Shown piece by piece: positions 33,268 to 55,318 of a stretch of DNA of 64,000 nt. Made by a program: the position numbers and the translations under genes. Every line of letters begins with the position of its first letter. Position 1 is the stretch's first letter. Origin of the DNA: Endozoicomonas sp. G2_2 (GTDB lineage Bacteria > Pseudomonadota > Gammaproteobacteria > Nevskiales > Salinisphaeraceae). Below the pieces are notes generated by a model. The model worked only from the letters and a program-made list of their open reading frames with translations, was not told where the DNA came from and made no database searches. Location: the NCBI RefSeq assembly GCF_017744135.1, contig NZ_JAGHQU010000002.1:310001-374000 (forward strand), read 5' to 3'.

Positions 33268-34350
33268 CTACTCGGCGTCGCCTGCCTGCGGGCCGGCCTC
33301 GCAAACCACGGCGAACTCGCGCAATACGCTGGTCGCAAAGGCGCCGGGCGGCAGTGAAAACGCTACACGCAGACAGCTGTCGTCCTCGAACACCCAGTCC
33401 AGATCCGGCACGGGCAACCGAAGCGCCCGGCGGGCGGCATCCACACCGGCGCTGGCGAGCCCGCCAACGAGATCGGGATAGGCCGCCAGCACCTCAGCCT
33501 CGAGCGCACGGGCGGTCGCCGATACGACGTCCGGCCCGTCGCGGCCCGGCAGCGGTCCGCTGGGGTGGATATCGAATGCGTCCAGCCGCTGTTCAAGCGC
33601 CGCGGCGGATTGATCGGTGGCGTCGAGCTCAAACAGGCTGTGGCTGCCGTCGAGCATCACCGCCTCGCCGTCAATCAGCCGATTCCAGCTGCCGTCACGT
33701 ACGCGTGCGTCGAGCACGGCATTGAACAACAGCGAACGCGCGGCCGAAAGCGCGAATCCGCGCCGGTTGCGCGACAGGCGCTTGCCCGCGAACAGCGCCC
33801 GCGACAGCGCGATATTGCGACCGCCGCGCCCAAAGCGTTGGGCGCCGAAATAGTTCGGTACCCCCACGGCGCGAATGCGTGCCAAGTCCTGCTCTAACGA
33901 CGCGCGTTCGCCGCGAAGTTGCCGAAGACGCAGAACGAATCGGTTGCCGCGATGTGCGCCGCGCTTGAGCTTGCGCTCGTGGCGCTTCATGTCGAGCACG
34001 GTCAATCCGGCGATATCGTCGAAGTCCGGCAGATCACGGGCAATCGGCCAGGCCAGCGAGATCCACTGACGGGTGACCGCCACACGGTCCTTCATCCCGG
34101 AGAAGCCGATCTGGCGCGGATGCACGCCGGCCGCGCGTGAAAGCGCCTGAACTGCGTCCTGGGTGGTGAGATTGGTCTTCTCTACGTGACACCAGAGGTG
34201 TTCACCGCTGCCGCTCAGAGCGATGTCGCAGTCTTCGTCGACGAAGAAATCCGCGGGTTGCTGGCGAATGACCGCCTGGACCCGCGGCTGTTCGCCGCGC
34301 GCGTAGGCGAGCGCGGCGATATCCACCGCGTCCCCGTCGAGCAGAGGCAT
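33268..34350 (-). CDS. truD: tRNA pseudouridine(13) synthase TruD
   Basis: This 360-residue enzyme converts U13 of certain tRNAs to pseudouridine. GFSGMKDRVAVTRQWISLAW (about residues 78-97) contains the catalytic Asp of the GxKDRxAxTxQ motif. NYFGAQRFGRGGRNIALSRALF (about 165-186) and the N-terminal VIRQQPADFFVDE are also family signatures. The start codon directly follows the ftsB stop with zero spacing. In most relatives ispD and ispF lie between these two genes; there is no room for them here. Confidence 0.95.
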   Translation of the reverse strand: MPLLDGDAVDIAALAYARGEQPRVQAVIRQQPADFFVDEDCDIALSGSGEHLWCHVEKTNLTTQDAVQALSRAAGVHPRQIGFSGMKDRVAVTRQWISLAWPIARDLPDFDDIAGLTVLDMKRHERKLKRGAHRGNRFVLRLRQLRGERASLEQDLARIRAVGVPNYFGAQRFGRGGRNIALSRALFAGKRLSRNRRGFALSAARSLLFNAVLDARVRDGSWNRLIDGEAVMLDGSHSLFELDATDQSAAALEQRLDAFDIHPSGPLPGRDGPDVVSATARALEAEVLAAYPDLVGGLASAGVDAARRALRLPVPDLDWVFEDDSCLRVAFSLPPGAFATSVLREFAVVCEAGPQAGDAE

Positions 34351-34662
34351 TTACCGTGCGGCCTGGTGACTGCTGTCGGCGGTACCGGGCGGCGCGATGG
34401 TGAGGAAGAACTGCTCGTCGCGCTTGATCATGCCCATGTCGGAGCGCGCACGGCCTTCGGTGGCACTCTCGCCGGACTTGAGGTCGTCGACCTCGGCCTG
34501 CAGGGCGTTGTTGCGAACAAGGCGCTGCTCGTTGGCCTCGTGCAGCTGTTCCTTCATCTCGCCCAGACGATGGACTTCCGCCCAGCCGCCATCCGCGATC
34601 CACAGGCGATACTGCAGACCGGCGAGCACGACGACGAGCGCAATGACCACGATACGATACAT
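34351..34662 (-). CDS. ftsB: Cell division protein FtsB
   Basis: This 103-residue bitopic membrane protein matches E. coli FtsB in length. It has a short N-terminus, a transmembrane segment (YRIVVIALVVVLAGLQYRLW, about residues 2-21) and a periplasmic coiled coil (about 30-70, LGEMKEQLHEANEQRLVRNN) that pairs with FtsL in the divisome. ATG 34662 is used; the upstream in-frame start adds an Arg-rich peptide that would disrupt the topology. It lies downstream of eno as in other gammaproteobacteria. Confidence 0.92.
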   Translation of the reverse strand: MYRIVVIALVVVLAGLQYRLWIADGGWAEVHRLGEMKEQLHEANEQRLVRNNALQAEVDDLKSGESATEGRARSDMGMIKRDEQFFLTIAPPGTADSSHQAAR

Positions 34663-34726
34663 ACGCCGATTGTAGCGCGCCCGCGGCCGCTGTCCAGCAT
34701 GGGCGAGATCCGCCCGCATGTTCATG

Positions 34727-38560
<3,834 letters not shown>

Positions 38561-38572
38561 CTAGCCGAAAGC

Positions 38573-39895
38573 CTACGCGCGGACAACGCGCAGCGTACCG
38601 TCCATCAGGCGATGACGCCAGACGACCGTGCCGATCGCGTGCTCCGATACCTGTGCCATCCGCGGATGGCGCCAGATGCCCGGCACGACGATCAGTTCGC
38701 CGTTCAGATGGATCAAGGGCATGCGCTCACGTACCCAGGGCGCGACCCGGGCTTCGCGCAGAACGTCCTTGAGGCGCCGATGGGTCCCGCCGGCCTGGCG
38801 CAGACGCTCGCCGCCGCGACGAAACGCCACCGTGAGCGTCGGCATCGCCGCGCCGCCAGACTCCAAGACCAGCGAGCCGCATTCGTTCGGCAGATGCAGG
38901 GTGTTACGGCCGGTCCAGGCGATCGCATCGACTTCAGGTACCGTGTCCAGCGCCGGCATCGCATGAAGCCGGCCATCGAAAAGCCGCACGTCGGTCTGGG
39001 CGAACCGCACGCAGGGGCTGGCAGTCAGGCTCGCATCAGTCAGGCGCAGGATTTGCGCAAGCTGGCGATGGTCCGGCGTGTCGCGCCCAGCGCGCGTGAG
39101 CCAATGTCTTACCGCCTGCTTGCGCCGGGCAAACGACAGCGCCTTGAGCGCCTCGCAGGACAAGGTCCCCGCGCGATCGCGGACGCGATCGAAATCGGCG
39201 GTTGCCAGCGCCTCGATCGCTTCGCGTGCCTCCTGCGTATAGGTGGCCGCGCGCGACAGCGTTGCCGCGGCGGCAGGCCAGCGTGTTTCGATCAGGGGCA
39301 GCACTTCGCTGCGAATGAAACTGCGCGCGACATGCGGATCGTGATTGCTCGGGTCCTCGATCCAGTCCAGCTCGTGGCGCGCCGCATAGGCCCGGATATC
39401 CGACCGCGCAATATCCAGCCATGGCCGCCAGTGTACGCGCTCCGCAAACGCCGCCGTCGATGGCATGGACGCCAAGCCGTCGGGCCCGCTACCGCGTAAC
39501 GCCTGGAGCAGGAAGGTTTCGGCCTGGTCGTCGCGGTGATGCGCCGTGACAAAGGTTTCACCGGCCGCCAGCGCGCCGGCGATCGCCTCATAGCGCGCCT
39601 CGCGTGCCGCGCCCTCCATGCCGCCCCCGCGGCCGTCGACACGCACGTCGAGACGAGTGAAAGCAATGTCCCAAGCCTGACAAACCGCACGACAATGCGC
39701 GGCCCAGGCCTCCGCTTCGGGCTGCAGGTGGTGACAGACATGAACACCGCGCAGCGGGATCGCAGGCGCACGGGCCGCGAGCGCATGGAGCAAGGCCGTG
39801 GAGTCCAGACCGCCGCTGAACCCGACCGCCAGGCCCGCGGTGCCATCCGGCGGCGCGGCCAGAGCGTCGGCCAGCGCCGCGAACCGGTCGTTCAC
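38573..39895 (-). CDS. tilS: tRNA(Ile)-lysidine synthase
   Basis: This 440-residue ATP-dependent enzyme modifies C34 of tRNA-Ile to lysidine so that AUA is decoded. The PP-loop motif [16 protein letters not shown] (about residues 24-39) sits near the N-terminus. [29 protein letters not shown] (about 117-145) is the second conserved region, and a C-terminal substrate-binding domain follows. The start is GTG 39895, overlapping the accA stop as GTGA, so translation is coupled to accA. Confidence 0.95.
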
Positions 39896-40863
39896 CCCAC
39901 GAGCTTGAAGTCTCCGAACGCCATCCAGCGCTTGTAACGCGTCTCAAGCAGTTCGTCGACGCTCATGTGCTTGAGCCGCGACATGTTGGAGAGCAGGCGC
40001 TCGCGCATCTGCTCCATCAGCTGCTTGGGATCGCGGTGGGCGCCGCCCAGCGGTTCCTCGAGCACTTCGTCGACTAGCTTCAGACGATGCAGATCCTCGG
40101 AACCGACCTTCATGGCTTCGGCCGCGTCTTCGGCCCGCTCGGCGGATTTCCACAGAATCGAGGCACAGCCTTCCGGCGAGATCACCGAGTAGATGCTGTA
40201 CTGGAGCATCATCAGATGATCGCCGACGCCGACCGCCAGCGCGCCGCCGGAACCGCCTTCGCCTACGACCGTGCACAGGATCGGCACGCGCAGGCGCGCC
40301 ATCTCGAACAGATTGCGCGCGATCGCCTCCGATTGGTTGCGTTCCTCGGCGCCGATGCCGGGATAGGCGCCGGGCGTGTCGATGAACGTCAGCACCGGCA
40401 TGTTGAAACGCTCGGCAAGCTTCATCAGGCGCAGCGCCTTGCGATAGCCCTCGGGGCGCGGCATGCCGAAATTGCGATGGATCTTTTCCTTGGTGTCGCG
40501 GCCCTTCTGGTGACCGATCACCATCACCGACTGGCCGCCCAGGCGTGCAGTGCCGCCGATGATGGCGCGATCATCGGCATAGGCACGATCACCGTGCAGT
40601 TCCACGAAATCCGTGAACATGCCGTTGATATAGTCTTCCGTGTAGGGGCGCAGCGGATGGCGCGCCATCTGGGCAACCTGCCACGTCGACAGCTTGCCGA
40701 AGATCTGCTCGGTGAGGCTGCGGCGCTTGCCCTCGAGCTTGGTGATCTCTTCGTTGAGATTGACCTCGCTGCCGTCCGCGACAAAGCGCAGCTCCTCGAT
40801 CTTTTCCTGCAGCTCGGCGATCGGCTGTTCGAAATCGAGATAGTCGAGGTTTTTCTGCGCCAT
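39892..40863 (-). CDS. accA: Acetyl-CoA carboxylase carboxyltransferase subunit alpha
   Basis: This 323-residue subunit transfers the carboxyl group from carboxybiotin to acetyl-CoA together with AccD, the first step of fatty acid synthesis. It begins [21 protein letters not shown], a standard AccA start. [38 protein letters not shown] (about residues 113-150) and [27 protein letters not shown] (about 159-185) are the CoA/biotin-binding regions. [20 protein letters not shown] carries the oxyanion-type glycines. dnaE lies 30 bases upstream. Confidence 0.97.
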
Positions 40864-40893
40864 CGTGATTGCTGTGTCTTTCCGCGGTGCGGT

Positions 40894-43800
40894 TTATTGA
40901 ACGGGGGTCTGTCCGCGACGATAACGTACTTGCACCTGATCCGCACCCACGAGATGCCTTAGATCGGCAAGCAATTCGTCGCAGATGCGCACCCGCGTCT
41001 CGCCAAGCGTGAATACCGCCCGCGCCCGATCGTTGGCATAGCGCAGCACGACGTCGCAGCCGGCTTCGGTGCGATGCCGATCCACACAGCCGGCGAGCGC
41101 CTCGATATCGGGTACCGTCGGCGCCTGCAGCTTGAGCAGCACGCGGCTGGCGTAGCGCGCCCGCGCCTCGCCGATATCCATCACCGTGTTCGCATTCAGC
41201 CGGAAACCGTCGGTGAAATCGTCGTATTGCAGATTGCCTTCGACGATGACCAGCTTGTCCGCGGCCAGTAGATGTCCGTATTCGGCCGCCTTTTCCTCGA
41301 ACAGCGGGCATTCGATACGACCGCTGCCGTCGTCGAGCACCACGATGATGCGCTTGCCTTTCTTCATGCGCCGCACCTCGACCACCAGCCCGGCCACGAT
41401 CGCGCTGCGCTTGTTGCCGCGCCGGCCGCGCCCGCCCTCTTCCGGGCGCGGCATGGCCGCAATCTGATCAGCGATCTTGCCGTTGGTCATCAGCGCGAGT
41501 TCGTCTTCCCAGGCCTTGATCGGATGGCCGGTCAGATATAGACCCAGCGTGTCGCGCTCGGCCTTGAGGCGTTCGTCCTCCGGCCATTCCGGGCGTTCTT
41601 CGAGCGGCGGGCCCATGTTGTCGGCGGCGTCCTCCGCCAGGCCGAACATGTCGTTCTGGCCCGCACTCGCCGCACTGCGGTCCTGTTCGGCCGCGGCAAG
41701 CGCGCGGGTCAGGCCCTGCATGAGGCTGGCGCGATTCGGCCCGAGCGCATCCAGCGCGCCGGCGTTGATCAACGCCTCCAGCGCGCGGCGATTGGCCTTG
41801 GAGGTATCGATACGCCGGCAGAAATCGTAGAGGTTGGCGTAGGCCCCGTTGTCGCGGCGCTCGACGATCACCGAGTCGATCGCACCCTTGCCGAGGCCCT
41901 TGATCGCGCCCAGGCCGTAGCGGATGGTCTTGTCGTCGACGACCGAGAAATCGTATTCGGAGTTGTTCACGTCTGGCGGCGCCACCTCGATATCCATGCG
42001 GTGGCATTCGTCGATCATGATCACGACCTTGTCGGTGTGATCCATGTCCGCCGAAAGCACGGCCGACATGAAATCGGCCGGGTAATGCACCTTCAGCCAG
42101 GCGGTCTGGTAGGTAAGCAGTGCATAGGCCGCCGAATGCGACTTGTTGAAGCCGTAGCCGGCGAATTTCTCGACCAGGTCGAAGATGTAGGCGGCGGTGT
42201 TTTCTTCGATATTGTTCTCGACCGCACCCTTGATGAAGCCGTCACGCTGCTTGGCCATCTCCTCGGGCTTTTTCTTGCCCATCGCGCGGCGCAGCAGGTC
42301 GGCACTGCCCAGCGAATAGCCGGCCAGCACCTGCGCAATCTGCATCACCTGCTCCTGATACAGAATGACGCCGTAGGTCGGCTCCAGCACCTCTGCCAGG
42401 CTATTGTGCGGGTAAACCACCTTCGCGCGGCCGTGCTTGCGGTCGATGAAGTCCTCGACCATGCCCGACTCCAGCGGGCCCGGGCGATAAAGCGCGACGA
42501 GCGCGATGATGTCCTCGAAGGCGTCCGGCTTGAGCCGCTTGATCAGCCGCCGCATGCCCGAGGATTCCACCTGGAAAACCGCGGTGGTATCGCCGGCCTT
42601 GAGCAGATCGAAAGTGCCCTTGTCGGTCATGCCGATCGAGCGCACGTCGATCGGCGCCTTGTCCTGGCGCGCCAGGCGCTCGTTGGCCACGCGCACGGCA
42701 CGGTCGATGATGGTGAGCGTGCGCAGGCCGAGAAAGTCGAACTTGACCAGGCCGACCGCCTCGACATCGTCCTTGTCGAATTGCGTGACGCGGTTGTTGC
42801 CGCCCGCCTCGCAATAGAGCGGCGTGAACTCGATCAGGTCGTCCGGTGCGATGACCACGCCGCCGGCATGCTTGCCGGGGTTGCGGGACAGGCCTTCGAG
42901 CGCCAGCGCCAGATCGAGCAGATAACCGATCTCCTCGTCTTCCTTGGACTGGCGCAGCTCCTCGGACTCCTCCAGCGCACGCGTGAGCGTCATGTCCGGT
43001 GCGAACGGCACCTGCTTTGCAATGCGATCGACCAGGCCGTAGGGGTGGCCGAGCACACGCCCCACGTCGCGCACCACGGCGCGCGCGGCCATGGTGCCGT
43101 AGGTGATGATCTGACTGACCTTTTCCTTGCCGTAGGCTTCGGCCACGTATTCGATGACGCGGTCGCGCCCGTCCATGCAGAAGTCGACATCGAAGTCGGG
43201 CATGGATACACGTTCGGGGTTGAGAAAGCGCTCGAACAGCAGGTCGTATTCCAGCGGGTCGAGGTCGGTGATGCCCAACGCGTAGGCCACCAGCGAACCG
43301 GCGCCCGAACCACGGCCGGGCCCGACCGGCACGCCGTTCTCGCGCGCCCAGCGAATGAAGTCCGCCACGATCAGGAAGTAGCCGGGAAAACCCATGGTCT
43401 TGATCACGTCGAGTTCGTGATCTAGACGCTTGTCATAGACAGGCTGCTCCTTGGCGCGTCTGTCCGCGTCCGGGAACAGATCGGCCAGGCGCTCGGCAAG
43501 CCCGCGCTCGGATTCGGCGCGCAGGAAGGAGGCGGCGTCGTGCTCGGGCGGCACCGGGAAATTCGGCAGCACGTTCTCGCCGAGCGTGAGCTGCAGATTG
43601 CAGCGCTGTGCGATCTCCACCGTGTTCTCGACCGCCTCCGGCAGGTCCGAGAATAGCTCGACCATCTCCTGCGGCGTCTTCAGATACTGGGCTGGCGTGT
43701 AGTGCTTGGGCCGACGCGGATCGGCGAGCGTATAGCCGCCGTGAATAGCGACACGCGCCTCGTGGGCTTCGAAGTCGTCGGCGTGTGGGAAACGCACGTC

Positions 43801-44394: not shown

Positions 44395-44578
44395 AGATTG
44401 TGGTCGGTCGGGGTCGCGAGTGGGTCGATCGAGTCGGACAACAACAGCCGCGTTCGCCGATTGCGCAGGCAGCGGCGGGCGGTTGTTAGCCGGCCCGGTC
44501 ATTCTAACGAGCATTGGCGCGGGCCGGGTTTACGCCGCGCGGCCTGTGCCCCGCGAAAGCCCGCCACGCCAGCGGCGG

Positions 44579-45211
44579 TCAGATCATGAGACCGTCGAAA
44601 TTCATCTGACGGGCGCCCGCGGCCCGCGCGACCGGCGCAAAACTGCGCCGATGAATGGGCGTGACGCCCTGCGCCTCGATCGCGGCGCGGTGCGTTGCCG
44701 TGCCGTAGCCCTTGTGTTGCGCAAAGCCGTAGCCGGGATAGACGTCGTCATAGGCGACCATCTGCCGATCACGCGCGACCTTGGCGATGATCGACGCCGC
44801 GCTGATGGCCGGCACATGGCCGTCGCCGCCGATCACGGTGCGTAGCGGGCGCGCGAGTGGCGGCGCCTGATTGCCGTCGACCCAGGCGGCCGCTGGCGTC
44901 AAATGCAGCGCGGCGACCGCCCGCTGCATCGCGAGCAGGCTGGCCTGGAGAATGTTGAGGCGGTCGATTTCTTCCGGCGACGCCTCGGCGATCGCATAAG
45001 CAAGCGCGCGTGCGCGGATCTTTTCATCCAGGCGCTCACGATCGACTGCGCTGAGCGCCTTGGAATCCGTCAGCCCGCGCGGCAACGGCCGCGGCGCCAG
45101 GATGACTGCAGCCGCCACGACCGGCCCGGCCAGCGGCCCGCGCCCGACCTCGTCGACACCGGCAACGAGCGGACAGGCAAAACGCGTGGTTCGGCGAGCG
45201 CGAGCGCTCAT
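44579..45211 (-). CDS. rnhB: Ribonuclease HII
   Basis: This 210-residue enzyme nicks RNA in RNA-DNA hybrids, including single ribonucleotides in DNA. The acidic active site is seen in [15 protein letters not shown] (about residues 17-31, DExGRG), and the later segments WVDGNQ and [15 protein letters not shown] (about 139-153) are conserved. It overlaps the lpxB stop by 4 bases (ATGA) and precedes dnaE, as in other gammaproteobacteria. Confidence 0.95.
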
Positions 45212-46368
45212 CGTCGCGCCGCCACCAGGTCGGCGACGGCCCGCGCCGCGCGCCGGTCCGCATCGAGGGCAAGCTGTTCGTGGATCGAATCGAAGGCATC
45301 GGTCTGCTGCTGGCGTGCGGTCGAGGACTGCAACAGCCGGAACACCCAGGGGCCGATCATCTCCGCGCGCGCATCGGTCTGCAGAAACTCGGGTACCAGG
45401 GCCCGTCCCGCCAGCAGGTTGGGCATGCTCACATGCTCGATCTTGATCAGGTCGAGGCCGCGAGCAATGGCGTAATTCGTCTGCGAGAGCATATAGGCGA
45501 CCACCATCGGCGTCTTCGCCAGCAGTGCCTCGAGCGTGGCGGTGCCGGATGCGAGCAGCAGCACGTCGACCGCGCGCATCGCTTCGCGCGAACGTCCGTC
45601 GATCAGCGTGATATCCAGATCATTACCGGCGTCACGAAGCTGCGCTTCGAACAGGGCACGCATCCGCGGATTCGCCATGGGCGCAACGAAGCGCAGGCCC
45701 GGCCGGCGTCGCTGCAGCCAGCGCGCGGTCTCGATGAACAATGGGCCGAGGCGGCGAACCTCGGCGCCCCGACTGCCCGGCAGCAGTCCCACGAGCGCGT
45801 CGTTCGCGGGCAGCGCCAGCGCGGTTCTCGCGGCCGCGCTGTCGGGGTGTAGCGGCAATTCGTTCGCCAGCGGGTGGCCCACGAAGGTCACCGGAATATC
45901 GAAACGACGGAAGAACGCCTCTTCGAAAGGAAAGATCGCGAGCAGCAGATCGACCGCCTTGCGAATACTCCGGGTGCGCCCCTGCCGCCACGCCCATGCG
46001 GTCGGACAGACGTAGTGCACGGTGGTCACACCGCACCGCCGCAGGCGCATCTCCAAGGCCGTATTGAAGGCCGGCGCATCGATACCGATGAACGCCGCGA
46101 CATCGCGACCGCGCACATGGTTGAACAGCTGCCGGCGCAGCCTGAGCAGACGCGGAATCTCGCCCACCACCTCGCTGACGCCGAACAGCGACAACTGTTC
46201 GATATCCGCCAGCGACGTGCAGCCCTCGGCGCGCATGAGCGGGCCGGTAACGCCTTCGAAGCGCGCCGCCGGGTAGTGCTGGCGCAGCGCGCGCATCAGT
46301 CCGGCACCAAGCGCGTCGCCGGACTGCTCGCCGGCGACGATCACGAACAGGGGCGCGTCGGTGGCCAT
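45208..46368 (-). CDS. lpxB: Lipid-A-disaccharide synthase
   Basis: This 386-residue glycosyltransferase (family GT19) joins UDP-2,3-diacylglucosamine with lipid X to form the lipid A disaccharide. The N-terminus [23 protein letters not shown] (about residues 6-28), the segment [19 protein letters not shown] (about 93-111) and [26 protein letters not shown] (about 270-295) are typical. It is a peripheral inner-membrane enzyme, 17 bases downstream of lpxA. Confidence 0.95.
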
Positions 46369-46385
46369 GCCGGCGCGTCCGTGCG

Positions 46386-47159
46386 CTAGCGAATGATGCC
46401 GCGTTCGGCCTGCTCCAGCGACTCCAGCATCAGCTGCACCGAGGCGCTCGACTGGGCCGGTTCCCGCAACGCATCGCGGGCCTGTTCCAGGCGCAGTTTG
46501 GATCGGTAGATGGTGCGGTAAGCGCGCTTGGCCGCGGCGACCTCTTCTTCGCTGTAGCCGCGACGACGCATGCCGACCGAATTGATGCCGTGCGGCACCG
46601 CGGGTGCCCCGGCCGAGCGCACGAATGCCGGTACGTCCTGCTGTACGCCGCTGCAGTACGCGAGGAACGCCATCGTCCCGACGCGCCGGAACTGATAGAC
46701 CAGCGCAAAACCGGCGAGGATGCAGTAATCCCCGATACGGACATGGCCGGCCAGGCTTGCGCCGTTGGCCATGGTGATGCCGTTACCGAGCACACAATCG
46801 TGCGCGACGTGGGTATAGGCCATCAGCAGATTGTCGTCGCCGATGATCGTTTCGCTCTGATCGATCGTGGTGCCGCGGTGCACGCTGCAGTATTCGCGGA
46901 AGGTGTTGCGGTCGCCGATCGTCAGCCGCGTCGGTTCGCCGGCGTATACGCGATGCTGCGGTTCCGCACCGAGCGAAACGAACTGGAAGACGTTGTTCTC
47001 GTGCCCGATCGTCGTGTGGCCTGAAATGACCACGTGCGGACCGATCCGCGAACCGGCGCCGATCTTTACGTGCGGCCCGATGACGCTGAACGGGCCGATA
47101 TCGACATCGTCTGCGATCTGCGCTTCGGGGTGGACCTGGGCGCTGGGATCAATTGGCAT
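46386..47159 (-). CDS. lpxA: Acyl-ACP-UDP-N-acetylglucosamine O-acyltransferase
   Basis: This 257-residue enzyme performs the first step of lipid A synthesis. The N-terminal two thirds form a left-handed beta-helix of hexapeptide repeats (about residues 4-185). The catalytic His lies in AYTHVAHDCVLGNGITMANGASLAGHV (about 114-140). A C-terminal helical region follows. The chain-length ruler residue cannot be assigned by eye. It overlaps the fabZ 3' end by 11 bases, so the two are translationally linked. Confidence 0.96.
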   Translation of the reverse strand: MPIDPSAQVHPEAQIADDVDIGPFSVIGPHVKIGAGSRIGPHVVISGHTTIGHENNVFQFVSLGAEPQHRVYAGEPTRLTIGDRNTFREYCSVHRGTTIDQSETIIGDDNLLMAYTHVAHDCVLGNGITMANGASLAGHVRIGDYCILAGFALVYQFRRVGTMAFLAYCSGVQQDVPAFVRSAGAPAVPHGINSVGMRRRGYSEEEVAAAKRAYRTIYRSKLRLEQARDALREPAQSSASVQLMLESLEQAERGIIR

Positions 47160-47619
47160 CTGCGGCCTCCGGCTGCTCGTCCGGCTTCGCGGGAATCGCC
47201 ATCAACTGGGCGCGACAGGCGAGTTCATCACCGACCCAGGCCTCGGCATCGAAGCGCCAGATCCGCTTCTTGGCCGAACCGATCACAATCTTCAGCAGCA
47301 GCTGATCGCCCGGCACGACCTGGCGCTTGAAGCGCGCCTTGTCGATGCCGGCGAAATACACGATGGTGCCATCCGCCGAGTTCACCGTGCGCATGCCCAG
47401 GATGAGCCCGGCCTGCGCGAGCGCTTCCAGAATCAACACACCCGGCATCACCGGATGGCCCGGAAAATGCCCGGGGAAGAACGGCTCGTTGATGGTGACG
47501 TTCTTGATTGCGGTGATCGACTGGCCGGGTTCGCATTCGAGCACGCGGTCCACCAGCAGGAAGGGGAACCGGTGCGGCACCATGCGCATGATGGCCCGGA
47601 TGTCGTCTTGCTCGCTCAT
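47149..47619 (-). CDS. fabZ: 3-hydroxyacyl-ACP dehydratase FabZ
   Basis: This 156-residue hotdog-fold enzyme dehydrates 3-hydroxyacyl-ACP in fatty acid synthesis. The catalytic segment FFPGHFPGHPVMPGVLILEALAQAG (about residues 47-71) contains the active His and Glu. MVPHRFPFLLVDRVLE is the usual N-terminal signature. A short acidic tail (PDEQPEAADAN) ends the protein. Its start codon directly follows the lpxD stop. Confidence 0.97.
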   Translation of the reverse strand: MSEQDDIRAIMRMVPHRFPFLLVDRVLECEPGQSITAIKNVTINEPFFPGHFPGHPVMPGVLILEALAQAGLILGMRTVNSADGTIVYFAGIDKARFKRQVVPGDQLLLKIVIGSAKKRIWRFDAEAWVGDELACRAQLMAIPAKPDEQPEAADAN

Positions 47620-48666
47620 TCACTGATCTCCACTGGAGGGGGCATCCCGCTCGACGCGCCGAAGCCGTTGCTCGATCCGGTCGAGCTGACGGAACAGCGC
47701 CAGACGCTTGCGCCATGTCCCTGCCGGCATGGCGCGAAAGGTTGACGAGTATACCCCGCTGTCTTCTATGTTCTTCGGAACCTGGCTGGCCGCCGTGATG
47801 ATCACGCCATCGGTGATGCTCACATGATCGCCGATACCGACACCGCCACCGATCATGCAGTTCGCGCCGATCGTGCAGGAACCGGCGATCCCGGTACAGC
47901 CTGCGATCACGGTATGCGCACCGATCGCGCAGTTGTGTCCGATATGCACCTGGTTGTCGATCTTCACGCCCGGCGCGATTCGGGTGTCTTCGAGCGCGCC
48001 GCGGTCGATGGTGGTGCCGGCACCGATCTCGACGTCGTCGCCGATCTCGACACCCCCCATCTGTGGAATCGCCTCCCAGCCGCCGCCGTTGTGCACGAGC
48101 CCGAAGCCACGCGCACCGATCACGGCGTTCGGCTCGACGCTCACACGCTCGCCGAGCCGCACATTGTCGCCAATGCTGCAGTTGCTCGCGATCGTGGATT
48201 GCGCGCCGATACGGCAACCGGCGCCCACCACCGTGTTCGCACCGATGACCACCCCGGCTTCGACAGTGCTGCCCGCGCCGATGACCGCATGGGGGCCGAT
48301 ATGCGCCTCGGCGTGCACATCGGCGGATGACTCGACCACGCTGGCCGGGTGAATGCCCGGCCGCGGGCGATCGCGCTCGAAAAGCGCTGCGATGCGCGCA
48401 AAGGCCAGCCGGGGTTGATCGGCCACAAGCACGGGCAGCGCGCTCGCATCGACGAGCGATTCGGGCACGATCACGGCCGCCGCCGCACTCTCGGCAAGCG
48501 CTTGGCTGTTGGCCGCACCTTCGGCAAACGCAATGCAGCCGGCACGGCCCGGCGTGAGCGCGCAGACACCCGATATCGGGGTGTCGCCCGTGCCACGCGG
48601 GCACTCGAGGTCGAAACGTTCGGCCAGCGCGGCCAGCGTGAGCGCGGCCTCGGGCTGCGACACCAT
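47620..48666 (-). CDS. lpxD: UDP-3-O-(3-hydroxyacyl)glucosamine N-acyltransferase
   Basis: This 348-residue enzyme adds the second acyl chain in lipid A synthesis. An N-terminal uridine-binding domain (about residues 1-105) is followed by a long left-handed beta-helix of hexapeptide repeats (about 108-300). The catalytic His lies within VHIGHNCAIGAHTVIAGCTGIAGS (about 240-263). A C-terminal helix, FRQLDRIEQRLRRVE, closes the protein. It lies 4 bases after skp. Confidence 0.96.
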   Translation of the reverse strand: MVSQPEAALTLAALAERFDLECPRGTGDTPISGVCALTPGRAGCIAFAEGAANSQALAESAAAAVIVPESLVDASALPVLVADQPRLAFARIAALFERDRPRPGIHPASVVESSADVHAEAHIGPHAVIGAGSTVEAGVVIGANTVVGAGCRIGAQSTIASNCSIGDNVRLGERVSVEPNAVIGARGFGLVHNGGGWEAIPQMGGVEIGDDVEIGAGTTIDRGALEDTRIAPGVKIDNQVHIGHNCAIGAHTVIAGCTGIAGSCTIGANCMIGGGVGIGDHVSITDGVIITAASQVPKNIEDSGVYSSTFRAMPAGTWRKRLALFRQLDRIEQRLRRVERDAPSSGDQ

Positions 48667-48670
48667 GCGG

Positions 48671-49225
48671 CTAGCCGCCCTTCAATTCGGCAAGAATCTC
48701 GTCGGTGACGTCCACGGCATCGCTGGTATAAAGCACGCCGTCGCCCAAAATCAGGTCATAGCCGTTATCGTCGGCGTACTGATCGATGACCTCGAGAATG
48801 TCGGCGCGCATCTGGTCGAATTCCTTCTGTTCGGCGTCGCTGACGTCGTCGTTGTATTTGCTGCGCTGCATCTGCAGTTCGCGCTGGCGGTCGCGAATGT
48901 CGCTCTGCAGGCTTTCGCGATCACCCTCGCTCATCACAGAGCCATCCTGGGACAAACGATCCATGTCCTGGCGCAGCGCATTGGACTGTGCCTCGAGCTC
49001 GTTCTTGCGCTTGGCAAACTGGCTGGCCATGCTCGTCTTGGCACGGGCGGCCTGCGGCGACTCACTCACCACACGGGCCACGTCCACCACGCCGATCCGC
49101 AACGCTTGTGGCGCGGCCTCGCCCTGGCCGGCCGTAGCGTCCGCGGCTTCCTGGGCCATTGCCGCCGGGCCGGCCAGGCCGAGCAGGACGACCACGAATG
49201 CGCGTTTGAGCGGTAGGTAAGTCAT
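48671..49225 (-). CDS. skp: OmpH/Skp family periplasmic chaperone
   Basis: This 184-residue protein has a signal peptide (KRAFVVVLLGLAGPAAMAQ, cleavage near residue 25). A helical coiled-coil body follows (about 60-150, with KTSMASQFAKRKNELEAQSNALRQDMDRL and DRQRELQMQRSKYNDD), the OmpH tentacle region. It escorts unfolded outer-membrane proteins to BamA, which is encoded just upstream. ATG 49225 is used, with a GAGGT ribosome site; a longer frame upstream overlaps bamA and is not likely. Confidence 0.93.
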   Translation of the reverse strand: MTYLPLKRAFVVVLLGLAGPAAMAQEAADATAGQGEAAPQALRIGVVDVARVVSESPQAARAKTSMASQFAKRKNELEAQSNALRQDMDRLSQDGSVMSEGDRESLQSDIRDRQRELQMQRSKYNDDVSDAEQKEFDQMRADILEVIDQYADDNGYDLILGDGVLYTSDAVDVTDEILAELKGG

Positions 49226-49262
49226 GCGACCTCGCTTGATCGTCTGTCGTACCGGCGACCGC

Positions 49263-51641
49263 CTATAGCCCGACACCGAAGGAGAACTGGAAGCGGTCGA
49301 CCTCGTCGTCTTCCTCGCCGTCGACGTAAGCGGCATAACTCACACGCAGCAGACCGAAGAACGGCGTGAACCAGTAGAAGGCGACACCCGCCGACTTGCG
49401 CAGTTCCGACGCTTCGAAGGCGCTCGCGTCCTCATAGACGTTACCGATGTCGTAGAACGCGGTAAGACGTGTCGACTTGTTGTCGGACTCGAGGAACGTC
49501 GGGATGACCAGCTCGCTCTGCAGCGTGGTCAGGAACTGGCCACCGTAGGGGTTATCGAACGAGTCGCGCGGGCCGAGGCCACCGTTGGAGAAGCCGCGCA
49601 CCGAGCGCGCGCCGCCGGCAAAGAAGTTGTCGTACGGCGGTACGTCCTCGCCCTCGCCCCAGACATCGGTCTGTGCGACGCGGCCATCCATGGACAGCAC
49701 GACCTTGTCGGACAGGCCGGGCACCCACGAGCCGATACGGAAATAGCGCTCGTGCTCGATGCTGCTGTCGTAGTACTCGAGGTCCGAGCCCGGCCCCTTG
49801 ATATTGAATTCGAATTCGGTGTTCGAACCGCGTGTCGCGAAGAAGGTGCGGTTGCGCGTATCGCGCTGCCAGCCGGTCTGCAGTTCGTAAGTGGTGGCTT
49901 CCCTGCCGTTTTCGTCGATGAACTCACGCAGTTCGTCCGACAGCCTGTCTTCGCCATCACGATTGACCGCGGAATTGATCTCGTTGCGTTCGACGCCGAG
50001 ACCGGCGCGCAGCTGCGAGTACTCGGTGATCGGCAGGCCGAACGTAACCGCGCCGCCGACCGAGTTCAAATCGAAGCCCGAACCGATGCGAATAAGCTGG
50101 TCGGTGTTGCGATAGAACGCCGAAATCGTGCGCGACACGCCCTCGTCGGTGAAGTACGGGTCGGTCCAGCTCGCGCCGACGCTCTTGGCGTAGTCGTTGG
50201 TCTCGGCACGCAGGCTCACGCGGTTGCCGGTACCGCGGAAGTTGCTGTGCGACACGCTGCCGTTGACGAGAAAGCCCTGCGCGTCCGAAAAGCCCACGCC
50301 GAACTGCAACGTACCGGCGGCGCGCTCGCTGACGTCATAGTCGACATCGACGAGATCTTCGCTGCCGGCCACCTTGTCGGTGTTGACCTGCACATCCTGG
50401 ATATAGGGCAGACGGGCGAGACGGGTGCGCGAGCGCTCGACGCCGCGACGCGAGAATGGCGCGCCTTCGAACTGGCGCATCTCGCGACGCAGCGTTTCGT
50501 CGTTGGTCTTTTCGTTGCCGTTGAACGTGATCTGGCGCACGTAGGCACGCTTGCCGGGATCGATGAAGAAGGTGAGATCGACGGTCTTGCTCTCTTCATC
50601 GACCCTGGTGAGCGGGTCCACGTCGGCAAACGCATAGCCGAAATCGGCCAGGCCGGAGCTGATCGCGTCCGCCGAGGCGTCGACGTCGCTGCGCGAGAAG
50701 ATCTGGCCACCCTCCACGGTCACGAGTCGCTGCAGGCTGGTCTGCGGCACGATCATGTCGCCGGCGAACTCGTAGTCGTTGATCGTGTACTGGTCGCCCT
50801 CGTCGACATTGATCGTGAGGAAGATGTTGCGCTTGTCCGGCGACAGCGACACCTGAATCGAGGACACGTTGAAACGGATATAGCCGCGGTTCTGGTAGAA
50901 GGAGTTCAGCGATTCGAGATCGCCGAGCAGCTTTTCTCGCGAGTAGCGGTCGCGGCTGCGCCAGAACGTCAGCGGCCGCGTGTAGGCCGGCGAGCTGGCC
51001 TGCAGTTCGAAGACATCCTGCAACTCCTCATCGGTGAAGTTCTCGTTGCCGATGATGTTGATGTCCTTGATGGAGGCGACCTCGCCCTCCTTGACCGTGA
51101 TGTCGATGGCGACCCGGTTGTTGCCCAGATCCTCGACCTCGGTATCGATCGCCACGCTGTAGTAGCCGTTGGCGTAGTACTGCCGGCGCAGTTCCTGCTC
51201 GAGCTGGTCGACGAGCGACCGCTTATAGAGCTCGCCCTGTGCCAGGCCCTGATCGGCCAGCGCTTCCTTGAGCTGGTCGCCACCGATGTTCTTGTTGCCC
51301 TCGATGGTGAAGCGCGCGATCTCGGGACGCTCGGTCACGTCGACGACAAGCGTGTTGCCTTCGCGCTCGAGCGTGACGTTCTCGAACAGCCCGGTTTCAT
51401 AGAGCGCGCGAATGGATTGCTGCGCTCGGGCTTCGGTGAGCCGATCCCCGACCGAAAGCGGCAGATAGGTCAGCACGGTGCCGGCTTCGAGGCGCTGCAC
51501 ACCCACGACCCGCACATCCGACACCTGGAAGTTGTAGCCGGACTGGCTGGACTGACTCGGTACGGACTGATTCTGAGCCCACGCGCTCACGGCAAAAAGA
51601 CACAGGAGCACGGCGAACGCGCGCATCAGAAATACAGGCAT
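49263..51641 (-). CDS. bamA: Outer membrane protein assembly factor BamA
   Basis: This 792-residue Omp85-family protein inserts beta-barrel proteins into the outer membrane. A signal peptide (about 1-22) is followed by five POTRA domains (about 36-440; POTRA1 begins FQVSDVRVVGVQRLEAGTVLTYLP). The 16-stranded barrel follows, with the lid-loop motif VRGFSNGGLGPRD (about 678-690). The length is normal. The last residues, RFQFSFGVGL, end in Leu rather than the aromatic residue common in BamA. It is 13 bases downstream of rseP and precedes skp, as in related bacteria. Confidence 0.96.
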   Translation of the reverse strand: MPVFLMRAFAVLLCLFAVSAWAQNQSVPSQSSQSGYNFQVSDVRVVGVQRLEAGTVLTYLPLSVGDRLTEARAQQSIRALYETGLFENVTLEREGNTLVVDVTERPEIARFTIEGNKNIGGDQLKEALADQGLAQGELYKRSLVDQLEQELRRQYYANGYYSVAIDTEVEDLGNNRVAIDITVKEGEVASIKDINIIGNENFTDEELQDVFELQASSPAYTRPLTFWRSRDRYSREKLLGDLESLNSFYQNRGYIRFNVSSIQVSLSPDKRNIFLTINVDEGDQYTINDYEFAGDMIVPQTSLQRLVTVEGGQIFSRSDVDASADAISSGLADFGYAFADVDPLTRVDEESKTVDLTFFIDPGKRAYVRQITFNGNEKTNDETLRREMRQFEGAPFSRRGVERSRTRLARLPYIQDVQVNTDKVAGSEDLVDVDYDVSERAAGTLQFGVGFSDAQGFLVNGSVSHSNFRGTGNRVSLRAETNDYAKSVGASWTDPYFTDEGVSRTISAFYRNTDQLIRIGSGFDLNSVGGAVTFGLPITEYSQLRAGLGVERNEINSAVNRDGEDRLSDELREFIDENGREATTYELQTGWQRDTRNRTFFATRGSNTEFEFNIKGPGSDLEYYDSSIEHERYFRIGSWVPGLSDKVVLSMDGRVAQTDVWGEGEDVPPYDNFFAGGARSVRGFSNGGLGPRDSFDNPYGGQFLTTLQSELVIPTFLESDNKSTRLTAFYDIGNVYEDASAFEASELRKSAGVAFYWFTPFFGLLRVSYAAYVDGEEDDEVDRFQFSFGVGL

Positions 51642-51654
51642 ATATAAAGCTCCG

Positions 51655-53016
51655 CTACCCGAGCAAGCGCAGGATATCGTTGTAAAAAGCCAGGGTCATC
51701 AACATCAGCAGTGCGACCATGCCCATCTGCTGTCCGGCGACCTGAACGGCCTCCGAGAGAGGCCGGCCCCTTATCCATTCGATCGAATAATACAGAAGAT
51801 GCCCCCCGTCTAACACCGGAATGGGCAGAAGGTTGAGTACCGCAAGGCTCACGCTGACCAGGGCCAGGAAGCCGACAAACGCCTCGACGCCGATGCTCGC
51901 GGTCTGTCCGGCGTAGTTGGCGATCTGGATCGGACCACTCACGTTGCGCCAGGACACGTCACCGGTGACCATGCGTGCCATCAGGCGCACCGTCAGCGCG
52001 GACACTTCCCAGGTCTTGGACACGGCGGCCGGTACCGCGGCCAGCGGGCCCAGCTGGCGCGTCGTGCGCATCGCTTCCCATGCTTCACCGTCGACGCCGA
52101 TCTGCGCGCCGAGGCGACCGACGGGCTCGCCGGCCTCGTTCTCGGCTGCCGCCAGGGTTACAGGCACTTCCTGCCGACGACCGTCGCGCGCGATGGCCAG
52201 CGTGACGCGTTCGCCCGGCTGTGCCTTGATCCGATCGACCAGGCCTTGCGGCGAGTCGACGCTTTCGCCATTGACGGCGAGCACCTCATCGCCGGCCTGA
52301 AGCTGCGCGGCTTCGGCTGCCGAGCCCGGCACCACACGGGCAATCAAAGGCGTTGCCGGCGGCTGATACGGCGCCAGACCGAGGCGGTCGAAAAGTTTTT
52401 CGGGATCGGCCGGCACACCACGCAGGTCGAGCGACACGTCGCGCGCCATGCCATCGTCTCCGCGCACGGAAAGATCCACCGCCTGACCGTCGAGGCCGCG
52501 CTCGATCAGTGTCAGCCGCAGATCCTGCCAGTCGCCGATCGCGCGGTCGTCGATCGCCACGATCTCATCGCCGGCACGCAATCCGGCCGCGTTTGCCAAC
52601 GTGCCGTCGGGCGCACTGGCGATCATGGGTTTGATGCCGGCCACGCCAATCATGAACACGAGCCAGTAGGCCACGATGGCAAAAAGAAAATTCACCCCCG
52701 GCCCCGCCGCCACGATGGCGATGCGCCGCCACGGGTGCTGGCGATTGAAGGCGTACGGCTTGTCGGCTTCGGCCACTTCGCCTTCGCGCTCGTCGAGCAT
52801 CTTCACGTAGCCGCCCAGGGGAATCGCCGACAGCCAGTATTCGATGCCGCTCTGCCGGCCCGTGAAGCCCCACACACGTCGACCGAAGCCAATCGAATAG
52901 CGAAGCACTTTCACGCCGAGGCGCCGCGCGACCCAGAAGTGGCCGTACTCGTGAATCGCCACCAGCAGGCCGATCGAGACGATGAACGCGGGCACTGACA
53001 TCAGCCAGTCGGACAT
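51655..53016 (-). CDS. rseP: Site-2 protease RseP
   Basis: This 453-residue inner-membrane zinc metalloprotease cleaves the anti-sigma factor RseA in the sigma-E envelope stress response. The HExxH motif is in AIHEYGHFW (about residues 20-28), and the third ligand Asp lies in the LDG motif NLLPIPVLDGGHLLYY (about 392-407). Two PDZ domains occupy about 115-200 and 205-300 (with SAAEAAQLQAGDEVLAVNGE). The upstream gap to cdsA is 150 bases and lacks dxr. Confidence 0.95.
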   Translation of the reverse strand: MSDWLMSVPAFIVSIGLLVAIHEYGHFWVARRLGVKVLRYSIGFGRRVWGFTGRQSGIEYWLSAIPLGGYVKMLDEREGEVAEADKPYAFNRQHPWRRIAIVAAGPGVNFLFAIVAYWLVFMIGVAGIKPMIASAPDGTLANAAGLRAGDEIVAIDDRAIGDWQDLRLTLIERGLDGQAVDLSVRGDDGMARDVSLDLRGVPADPEKLFDRLGLAPYQPPATPLIARVVPGSAAEAAQLQAGDEVLAVNGESVDSPQGLVDRIKAQPGERVTLAIARDGRRQEVPVTLAAAENEAGEPVGRLGAQIGVDGEAWEAMRTTRQLGPLAAVPAAVSKTWEVSALTVRLMARMVTGDVSWRNVSGPIQIANYAGQTASIGVEAFVGFLALVSVSLAVLNLLPIPVLDGGHLLYYSIEWIRGRPLSEAVQVAGQQMGMVALLMLMTLAFYNDILRLLG

Positions 53017-53166
53017 GGACTACTGCTCTCCAGACGCGGGGTTGGCGCAAACGGTATCGGCGTTGTAGACCGCAGAAAATGGTGGGCGATCCGCAAGCCG
53101 CCGATCGCGGCGATGTGTGACCGCAATACTACGTGATCGGTGCCAGGCGCGATGCCAACGCTTTGG

Positions 53167-53997
53167 CTAGACCGCGGACGGCAACCAGTGCAAGCCGGCA
53201 ACGAACCACGGTGCGGCGGCGAGCACACTGTCCAGGCGATCCAGCACGCCGCCGTGCCCCGGAAAGAGCGTGCCGCTGTCCTTGATCCCGGCATGACGTT
53301 TGAACATGCTGATGCTCAGATCACCGACGACCGAAATAATCGCCACCCAACCGCCAAGAAACATGAATGCGATCAGGCGATCACCGCTGTAGCCCAGCAG
53401 CCATGCGCCCGCCCCGGCGAACAGCATCGCGGCCACGAAGCCGCCAACCGCGCCCTCGCGCGTCTTGCCGGGGCTGACCGCAGGCGCGAGCTTGTGCCGG
53501 CCCAGCATGCGCCCGGCGAAGTAGGCACCCGTATCCGCGGCCCAAACCAGGAAGAAGAACGTGAGCAGCAGCAGCGGCCCCTGGTCGCTCTGGTGCAGAT
53601 AGGTTACCGCTGCGACCGGGGCAACCAGCACGATCAGCCCGACCGCGACGCCGACCGCCGTGCGCCCCATGGTCTCGGCCCAGCCGCGGGGAAAGCGCGC
53701 GATCCAGTAGATCGCGACCAGCCACCACAGGCAGGCCGCGCCGACGAGCAGATTGTCGGCGGCCACGAGCCAGAGCTGCGTACGCACCAGCGCGAACAAG
53801 AAGATGAGCAGTGCCACGGCCAGCGTGAGCACAATGCGGCCGGTATCCGTCAGACGCATCAAGCCGCCCCATTCCCATGCACCAAGCAGCATGAGCAGGG
53901 CGAACACGAGCGTAATTACCGCGGTCGGCAGAAACAGCATGCCGAGAACGGCCAGTGGCACGACCGCCAGGGCGGTGGCGATACGGGTCGAGAGCAT
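53167..53997 (-). CDS. cdsA: Phosphatidate cytidylyltransferase
   Basis: This 276-residue integral membrane enzyme makes CDP-diacylglycerol from phosphatidic acid and CTP. Multiple hydrophobic segments span the protein. The C-terminal signature SMFKRHAGIKDSGTLFPGHGGVLDRLDS (about residues 231-258) is complete, with the conserved KDSG and GHGGxLDRxDS. The spacing to uppS is 5 bases. In other gammaproteobacteria dxr follows here or lies next to uppS; neither place holds it. Confidence 0.95.
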   Translation of the reverse strand: MLSTRIATALAVVPLAVLGMLFLPTAVITLVFALLMLLGAWEWGGLMRLTDTGRIVLTLAVALLIFLFALVRTQLWLVAADNLLVGAACLWWLVAIYWIARFPRGWAETMGRTAVGVAVGLIVLVAPVAAVTYLHQSDQGPLLLLTFFFLVWAADTGAYFAGRMLGRHKLAPAVSPGKTREGAVGGFVAAMLFAGAGAWLLGYSGDRLIAFMFLGGWVAIISVVGDLSISMFKRHAGIKDSGTLFPGHGGVLDRLDSVLAAAPWFVAGLHWLPSAV

Positions 53998-54002
53998 GGG
54001 AG

Positions 54003-54725
54003 TCAGCCGCCGGGTGCCGCAGCCTGCGGCAGACGCCCGAAGCGCCGCTGGCGGTGGGCGAACCAGTCGACCGCCTCGCTCAGGCTGGCCTTGTCGAAGT
54101 CGGGCCAGAGTTCGTCGGAAAAATACAGTTCGCTGTACGCCAGATCCCAGAGCAGGAAGTTGCTCACGCGGCGCTCGCCGCCCGTGCGGATGAACAGATC
54201 GGGCGCGCCAAGCGCCGACAGCGACATGTGCTCGCCGAAACAGGATTCATCGATATCGTCCGGCGCGATCTCGCCCGCCGCGCACGCCCGGGCGATGCGG
54301 CATGTCGCCTGGACGATATCCCACCGCCCGCCGTAATCGATCGCGATCACGAGGTTGAGTGCTGCGTTGTCGCGGGTGCGCTCTTCAGCCTGCGCCATCT
54401 CGCGCTGCAGCGCATCCGAAAAATGCGAACGCTCGCCGATGAAGCTCAGGCGCACGCCGTTGTCGTGCAGCGAGCCGATCTCGCGGCGGATGGTTCGCCG
54501 GAACAGATCGAGCAATAGCCGGACCTCGGCTCGCGGGCGTTGCCAGTTCTCGCTGGAAAATGCGAACAACGTCAGCGTTTTAAGGCCTATTTCTCGAGCC
54601 GTTTCGACAATATCGCGCGCAGCACGCGCACCCGACCGGTGCCCGGCCGCGCGCGGCATGCCGCGCTGGCTGGCCCAGCGGCCGTTGCCGTCCATGATGA
54701 TGGCGACGTGTTCGGGAACACTCAT
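54003..54725 (-). CDS. uppS: Undecaprenyl diphosphate synthase (cis-prenyltransferase)
   Basis: This 240-residue enzyme extends farnesyl diphosphate with isopentenyl diphosphate to make the cell-wall lipid carrier. It begins VPEHVAIIMDGNGRWASQRGMPRAAGH (about residues 3-29), with the catalytic Asp in MDGNGRW. LTLFAFSSENWQRP (about 51-64) and the C-terminal PDLFIRTGGERRVSNFLLWDLAYSELYF (about 180-207) complete the pattern. ATG 54725 is used. Its need for isopentenyl diphosphate makes the missing dxr, ispD and ispF neighbours more notable. Confidence 0.96.
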   Translation of the reverse strand: MSVPEHVAIIMDGNGRWASQRGMPRAAGHRSGARAARDIVETAREIGLKTLTLFAFSSENWQRPRAEVRLLLDLFRRTIRREIGSLHDNGVRLSFIGERSHFSDALQREMAQAEERTRDNAALNLVIAIDYGGRWDIVQATCRIARACAAGEIAPDDIDESCFGEHMSLSALGAPDLFIRTGGERRVSNFLLWDLAYSELYFSDELWPDFDKASLSEAVDWFAHRQRRFGRLPQAAAPGG

Positions 54726-54760
54726 ACGCGAAGCGCCTGTCACTCGTTCGCGGTCTGTGT

Positions 54761-55318
54761 TCAGACCGTCATGATCTCCTGCTCCTTTTCTTCGAGCAGG
54801 CTGTCGATACGGTCGATATGCTTGTCGGTGAGCTGCTGGATACGCGTTTCGCCACCGTGCTGATCGTCGGCACTGATCTCCTTTTCGTTGACCAGCTCCT
54901 TGAGCGTGGAGTTCGCGTCACGCCGAATGTTGCGCACCGCCACGCGGCCATCCTCGGCTTCGGCGCGGATCACCTTCACCAGATCCTTGCGGCGGTCCTC
55001 GGTAAGCGGCGGCAGAACCACGCGGATCACCTGACCAGCGGTCGAGGGATTCAGGCCGAGATCGGCGGTCATGATCGCCTTCTCGATCGGCTGAACCATG
55101 GTCTTTTCCCACGGCTGAATGGTGATCGTGCGCGCATCCTCGAGCGCGACGTTGGCCGCCTGATTGAGCGGCACCTCTGCGCCGTAGTAGTCCACGGTCA
55201 CATGATCGAGCAGGCTGGTGCTCGCCCGGCCGGTGCGAATCTTGCTGAAGTTCTCGCGCATGACGCTGATGGTCTTGTCCATGCGCTGCTGCGCGTCGCT
55301 GTAAATCTCGTCAATCAT
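54761..55318 (-). CDS. frr: Ribosome recycling factor
   Basis: This 185-residue factor releases ribosomes after termination, together with EF-G. The sequence [38 protein letters not shown] (about residues 20-57) is typical, and the C-terminal helix [30 protein letters not shown] follows. The start overlaps the pyrH stop by 4 bases (ATGA). Confidence 0.97.

Follow-up and report, generated by a model that had tools for sequence, protein, structure and literature searches.

How a bacterium supplies itself with isopentenyl diphosphate (IPP) when genes for making it have disappeared from their usual places is the question raised by a 64,000-nucleotide stretch of Endozoicomonas sp. G2_2 (assembly GCF_017744135.1, contig NZ_JAGHQU010000002.1, positions 310,001 to 374,000), the whole of which is referred to here as the window. 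Three genes of the methylerythritol phosphate (MEP) pathway, dxr, ispD and ispF, are missing from two conserved sites, and uppS, whose product consumes IPP, stays. A sequence-only reading of this DNA had found the pattern easier to explain by pathway replacement than by chance moves and had pointed to mevalonate as a possible alternative route. The analysis described here leads to the same view, held at a probability of about 95%: in an ancestor of the family to which Salinisphaera belongs the MEP pathway was lost, and its place is taken by a mevalonate pathway whose genes form a single cluster. It goes beyond the earlier reading in three respects, namely a fusion of 3-hydroxy-3-methylglutaryl-coenzyme A (HMG-CoA) reductase with mevalonate kinase, the family-wide extent of the replacement, and the loss of dxs though vitamin genes that use 1-deoxyxylulose 5-phosphate (DXP) stay.

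Two emptied sites in a conserved gene order

The window (63.4% G+C) holds a minus-strand run of rpsB, tsf, pyrH, frr, uppS, cdsA, rseP, bamA, skp, lpxD, fabZ, lpxA, lpxB, rnhB, dnaE, accA, tilS, pyrG, kdsA, eno, ftsB, truD and surE, in which ten genes were identified by profile and the remainder named from sequence. The first site is flanked by ftsB (34351..34725; NCBIfam PRK00888, 92.2 bits against a cut-off of 101) and truD (33268..34350; TIGR00094, 178.3 bits, cut-off 172.2), which meet with zero bases between them (34350..34351) at the point occupied in relatives by ispF and a stretch the size of ispD. The second, the site of the lost dxr, lies between cdsA (53167..53997; assigned by position and by PRK11624 at 172.8 bits, cut-off 385) and rseP (51655..53016; TIGR00054, above cut-off), which are separated by 150 bp (53017..53166). 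On the other side of cdsA, uppS (54003..54743; TIGR00055, 277 bits, above cut-off) stands 5 bp away and frr (54761..55318; TIGR00496, 226 bits, above cut-off) a further 17 bp beyond, so that none of ispD, ispF and dxr could fit into the run.

Two genomes of the same taxonomic order as the window genome but of different families, G022 and G018, served as positive controls. Both keep the same gene run, with dxr sitting between cdsA and rseP (gaps of 1203 and 1294 bp) and ispF between ftsB and surE, the ftsB–ispF gaps of 743 and 726 bp being ispD-sized; truD gave no match in either control stretch at an E-value of 1e-8, and surE was used as the flank. Because these controls retain dxr, ispF and the ispD-sized gap, the gaps in the window reflect genuine gene loss from an ancestral arrangement rather than chance, and the two emptied sites and the retained uppS described from sequence alone are thus borne out. 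Beside ftsB lies eno (34727..36010, minus strand; TIGR01060, 653 bits, above cut-off). An Rfam search returned no match within 29000–58000 of the window, and tRNAs only in five fetched loci.

Absence of MEP genes from the genome and the family

The window's own assembly (3.73 Mb in 33 contigs, 99.78% complete) is one of 41 genomes in the set, of which 17 (G000–G016, G000 being that assembly) are the family members examined; the collection may hold others. Each MEP-family profile search gave matches in at least 9 of 14 control genomes. In the window's assembly, by contrast, a genome-wide search for every MEP gene but ispD found no profile match to dxr, ispF, ispG or ispH and no dxs above cut-off, the best match to TIGR00204 reaching 58 bits in the genome search and 86.5 bits over the whole protein against a cut-off of 465.95. 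The GHMP kinase family to which IspE belongs (PF00288) has three matches in this assembly, all inside the mevalonate cluster discussed below. The finding that the sequence-only reading had named as its contradiction, a full set of MEP genes at other places in the genome, was thus sought, and dxs, dxr, ispE, ispF, ispG and ispH, six of the seven genes, proved absent, in keeping with replacement of a pathway rather than chance relocation of its genes.

The same holds across the family, where dxr, ispG, ispH and ispF each had profile matches in 0 of 17 genomes and dxs above cut-off in 0 of 17. Among the 41 genomes, those without dxr are the 17 family members and G028. In G021 an ispG match is absent but dxr, ispH and ispF are present, and the absence may be an assembly gap. 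HMG-CoA reductase is found in all 17 family genomes, in open frames of 756 to 1024 amino acids; a reductase match, unassigned to class, also occurs in eight members of the order that have dxr.

A mevalonate cluster on a second contig

The alternative route proposed earlier was found as one cluster running from HMG-CoA synthase to idi, at approximately 246,064–252,673 of contig C27 (locus L014, C27:239000-258000). Its minus-strand genes are mvaD (L014:11055-12134; mevDPdecarb profile, above the equivalog cut-off), a phosphomevalonate kinase gene (L014:10004-11305; below the equivalog cut-off, and probably starting in truth close to residue 86), the gene of the 758-residue reductase–kinase fusion (L014:7658-9934; both halves above equivalog cut-offs) and idi (L014:7065-7661; above the equivalog cut-off), while HMG-CoA synthase (L014:12205-13674, plus strand; below the equivalog cut-off) is divergent from mvaD. 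The decarboxylase scores 268.1 bits against TIGR01240 (cut-off 171.35) and 198.7 bits against NF040704 (cut-off 475), which makes it a classical diphosphomevalonate decarboxylase and not a phosphomevalonate decarboxylase, and its protein matches solved diphosphomevalonate decarboxylases. Likewise, the closest solved relatives of the synthase are HMG-CoA synthases; for the phosphomevalonate kinase Lin0012 is the closest, with mevalonate kinases and phosphomevalonate kinases after it. In the fusion, the reductase part matches HMG_CoA_R_NAD at 411 bits, above cut-off, and the kinase part TIGR00549 (mevalon_kin) at 246.4 bits (cut-off 163.05).

The presence and clustering of these genes are observed directly, and a sequence of reactions is proposed on their basis. 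Acetoacetyl-CoA and acetyl-CoA would yield HMG-CoA, which the two domains of one chain would convert to mevalonate and then to mevalonate 5-phosphate; the latter would pass through mevalonate diphosphate to IPP and on to dimethylallyl diphosphate (DMAPP), and both end products would be used by UppS and IspA-type synthases.

Other genes lie close by. A farnesyl-diphosphate-synthase-like gene (L014:4531-5418, minus strand) matches NF045485 above cut-off, and HpnM-like and HpnG-like genes of hopanoid type (plus strand) adjoin the cluster in L014, with scores (130 and 154 bits) that fall short of the respective cut-offs. In three family genomes the cluster is also adjoined by a Tas-type aldo-keto reductase gene and a phosphoribulokinase-like gene named by eye (L014:13736-15917, L021:13132-15276, L019:13579-15635), the Tas-type call having been made by profile in L014 only.

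The fused reductase–kinase and its predicted direction

Residues 1–428 of the fusion constitute a class II HMG-CoA reductase and residues 455–757 a mevalonate kinase. The two are encoded in a single reading frame in all nine loci fetched from the genome set (eight family genomes and G028), and frame length is the evidence for fusion in the other nine family genomes. A single frame was also read in the best 80 of 585 database matches, giving 89 of 89 loci in all, from several phyla. Between residues 428 and 452 of the reference, the length of the intervening stretch varies from 16 to 57 residues (median 21, 50 rows). Glu83, Lys268, Asp284 and His382 of the reductase, positioned by alignment with 1qax, and Lys457, Ser550, Glu582 and Asp593 of the kinase show no variation in 50 of 50 rows and are taken here to be catalytic. 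A structure model of the Salinisphaera shabanensis fusion (59 rows) has a mean predicted local distance difference test (pLDDT) score of 83.7 and consists of two folded parts joined by a linker with pLDDT below 50 at residues 434–447 and 449–452; its predicted template modelling score is low (0.54), and therefore the placement of the halves relative to each other is not fixed by the model. A fold search matched the halves to structures of the Pseudomonas mevalonii reductase and the Leishmania major and Methanosarcina mazei kinases, respectively; of 42 solved sequences with a match to the fusion, not one spans both halves.

Several points weigh against a biosynthetic mevalonate pathway. The reductase part matches the NCBIfam model TIGR00532, which bears the name 'degradative', and among its closest solved relatives is the P. 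mevalonii enzyme, itself degradative, to whose chains the fold search gave 48–51% identity. Moreover, HMG-CoA synthase and phosphomevalonate kinase score under their family cut-offs, the pathway was traced only from HMG-CoA synthase to idi, enzyme activities are predicted from genes, and the genome-wide absence of MEP genes covers the six other than ispD, the IspE family having been sought in the window's assembly only. The name and the identity values would fit an enzyme that breaks down mevalonate taken up from outside, isoprenoids being obtained otherwise. This is very improbable, however: no MEP route to IPP remains, and the reductase is joined to mevalonate kinase and clustered with decarboxylase, phosphomevalonate kinase, idi and HMG-CoA synthase. 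Furthermore, the position of P. mevalonii Asp146, presumably where the degradative, NAD-dependent enzyme makes its choice of NAD, is occupied by His in all 50 rows; in five solved relatives shown it is Asp in four and Tyr in the Streptococcus pneumoniae enzyme, whose entry 5wpj is NADPH-bound according to its title. Because His replaces Asp at this site, the fused reductase is predicted to use NADPH and to run in the biosynthetic direction, counter to its NCBIfam name.

Distribution and possible transfer of the fusion

Named carriers of the fusion among the best 80 of 585 matches include Salinisphaera, Wenzhouxiangella, Dyella, Nevskia, Litchfieldella, Marinobacter, Cryobacterium, Frigoribacterium, Calditrichota and Balneolaceae; these 80 were ranked by match to the fused query in genome_contigs, and so give no frequency and are silent on unfused forms. 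In 50 of the 80 genomes, of unstated completeness, ispG was searched for and gave no match in 33, some of these absences possibly being gaps, and a match in 17, two of which (G083 and G054) are broken or partial with a stop. Hence the cluster accompanies the MEP pathway in some lineages and apparently stands in for it in others. That coexistence is common in this sample might suggest that in the window genome, too, the MEP genes merely moved and the pathway is intact, the mevalonate cluster having been added to it, as seen in genomes of Cryobacterium or Litchfieldella with the same fusion, but this has next to no credibility given the family-wide absences reported above and the lack of any IspE-type kinase outside the cluster in the window's assembly, which refute it for all MEP genes except ispD.

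In G083, a metagenome-assembled genome (MAG) of Natronospirales, ispG lies in broken pieces with stops (L132:8079-9232) and the fused mevalonate cluster is found in the same MAG (L091); the pieces represent either decay in progress or an assembly error.

A quick tree of 89 fusions (midpoint root; Shimodaira–Hasegawa-like approximate likelihood ratio test, SH-aLRT, as the only support) groups the window genome's fusion with those of Salinisphaera sp. UBA6602 and S. shabanensis, at a branch support of 100 among named loci; the family is named here after Salinisphaera on this ground, and the bacterium itself is probably a Salinisphaera. Another branch with support of 100 places 12 Microbacteriaceae together with the Salinisphaera family, apart from other Pseudomonadota. 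A divergent HMG-CoA synthase gene stands beside mvaD in 11 of the 12 Microbacteriaceae loci, and idi directly after the fusion in 0 of 12. The shared branch and the divergent synthase suggest transfer of the cluster between phyla, in either direction.

The remaining genome without dxr, G028, adjoins a Nevskia MAG in the fusion tree. From this genome dxr, ispF, ispG and ispH have been lost, but dxs persists. In the region L115:4330-11025 its dxs directly follows an xseB-like gene and is succeeded by a UbiA-like gene and oxidoreductases, as named by eye; in control G022 (L127:9696-12802) an ispA-like gene, lacking in G028, stands by eye between the xseB-like gene and dxs. A second HMG-CoA reductase of G028 (L016:8573-9778), located near a P450-like gene (by eye), has TIGR00533, of NADPH type, as its best NCBIfam match, below cut-off.

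DXP-using vitamin genes kept without dxs

DXP is the substrate of PdxJ and ThiG. Profile searches find both pdxJ and thiG in 17 of 17 genomes of the family; its PdxJ scores overlap with those of dxs-bearing relatives, and ThiG scores are slightly lower (353–374 bits, against 367–384 for complete matches elsewhere). PdxS, the Dxs-free enzyme of vitamin B6 synthesis, was above cut-off in 0 of 17 family genomes and in 0 of all 41, with one weak match in G003. The 17 family genomes thus have genes for two DXP-using enzymes but neither dxs, the usual maker of DXP, nor pdxS above cut-off. It is possible but unlikely that pdxJ and thiG are unused leftovers, because both are retained throughout the family.

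Supply by a known Dxs bypass (the methylthioadenosine shunt, a YajO-type reductase, or altered RibB or AceE) is quite possible, if somewhat short of probable. These bypasses are listed in PMC10663253, and two of them in PMC3424233, and retention of pdxJ and thiG in every family genome agrees with such a supply. However, its profile match assigns the aldo-keto reductase next to HMG-CoA synthase to the Tas type, and RibB, the only one of these bypasses examined, was rejected: both family RibB proteins read, from two genomes, keep Gly108 and Asp113, the residues altered in Escherichia coli bypass mutants (PMC3424233).

Two further candidates were discarded. A transketolase-like DXP synthase in the window's assembly is not supported, as both of its dxs-profile matches are transketolases (938 and 919 bits to TIGR00232, the former being the best dxs match); the single dxs-profile match listed in 8 of 17 family genomes was also counted against it. 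A novel gene beside pdxJ or thiG in this assembly was likewise rejected, because the flanking genes resemble the ordinary lepA-lepB-rnc-era-recO-pdxJ-cysM and thiSG-trmB runs (names by eye). A tentative and, on balance, doubtful proposal is that a non-Dxs enzyme makes DXP for vitamin B6 and thiamine in the Salinisphaera family and that the fusion also passes mevalonate from site to site. If true, the lineage isolates a vitamin-only source of DXP, because isoprenoids there no longer draw on it, and could reveal an unrecognised DXP synthase.

As separate observations, a thiG at L112:1869-2867, about 11 kb from the mevalonate fusion, has an N-terminal ThiS-like stretch and is apparently a ThiS–ThiG fusion (by eye); its protein gives no NCBIfam match at 1e-20, and PF05690 matches there at 1.2e-108. 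Some 46 kb to the left of the window, on contig C22 (L114:4300-11413), genes resembling those of both RuBisCO subunits (large and small), phosphoribulokinase, aldolase and transketolase were noted, likely a carbon-fixing operon, all named by eye except the transketolase, which was identified by profile.

Implications

An essential pathway has been exchanged in a proteobacterial family, to judge by all 17 of the genomes examined. The state of the Nevskia-like genome G028, with dxs kept and four other MEP genes lost, allows steps of the swap to be ordered. The fusion represents a natural two-step module for making mevalonate phosphate that is useful in isoprenoid engineering, and genomes that lack dxs and bear pdxJ and thiG make the question of Dxs alternatives open to a direct genetic screen. 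Fosmidomycin, an inhibitor of Dxr, would also be expected to leave such bacteria unaffected.

Comparison with known systems

Mevalonate-only bacteria are already known, and within the open-licence papers searched the new parts are the fusion and the missing source of DXP; no report of the reductase–kinase fusion or of the DXP problem in the Salinisphaera family was found there. In the sections consulted, PMC10663253 counts 541 of 4,400 species with a mevalonate pathway and no or an incomplete MEP set, and PMC7691419 describes the mevalonate pathway of Wenzhouxiangella. The former also gives 181 candidate species without Dxs, names the known bypasses, raises Dxs alternatives as an open question for other species, and remarks that its approach would miss species that have an alternative in addition to a complete mevalonate pathway. 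The passages seen of these two papers do not name Salinisphaera. Of the other sources consulted in part, PMC13001223 surveys pathway diversity, with no occurrence of 'Salinisphaer' in its main text and one match to 'fus' that apparently refers to an IspDF fusion, and the text seen of PMC12632256 and PMC11052028 contains neither 'fusion' nor 'fused'. PMC8896826, considered as a report on IspG or mevalonate in Salinisphaera, was rejected since it concerns NadA.

The family resembles the mevalonate-using bacteria of PMC10663253 and PMC7691419, as far as these were seen, in having the mevalonate pathway without a full MEP set; it differs in that reductase and kinase are fused (as they also are in Wenzhouxiangella loci) and in that dxs is gone while pdxJ and thiG stay. 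With the class II reductases of P. mevalonii (1qax) and Delftia (6dio) the fusion has in common the fold and the four catalytic residues, but here the enzyme is fused to mevalonate kinase, bears His rather than Asp at position 146, and sits in a biosynthetic cluster. Similarly, the mevalonate kinases of M. mazei (6mde) and L. major (2hfs) match the kinase half in sequence and fold, whereas here the kinase forms the C-terminal half of a larger chain, behind a linker of low model confidence. Enterococcal MvaE is a fusion of acetoacetyl-CoA thiolase with HMG-CoA reductase, and thus likewise places two steps of the mevalonate pathway in one chain; in MvaE, however, the reductase is joined to the enzyme upstream of it, and here to the kinase of the next step.

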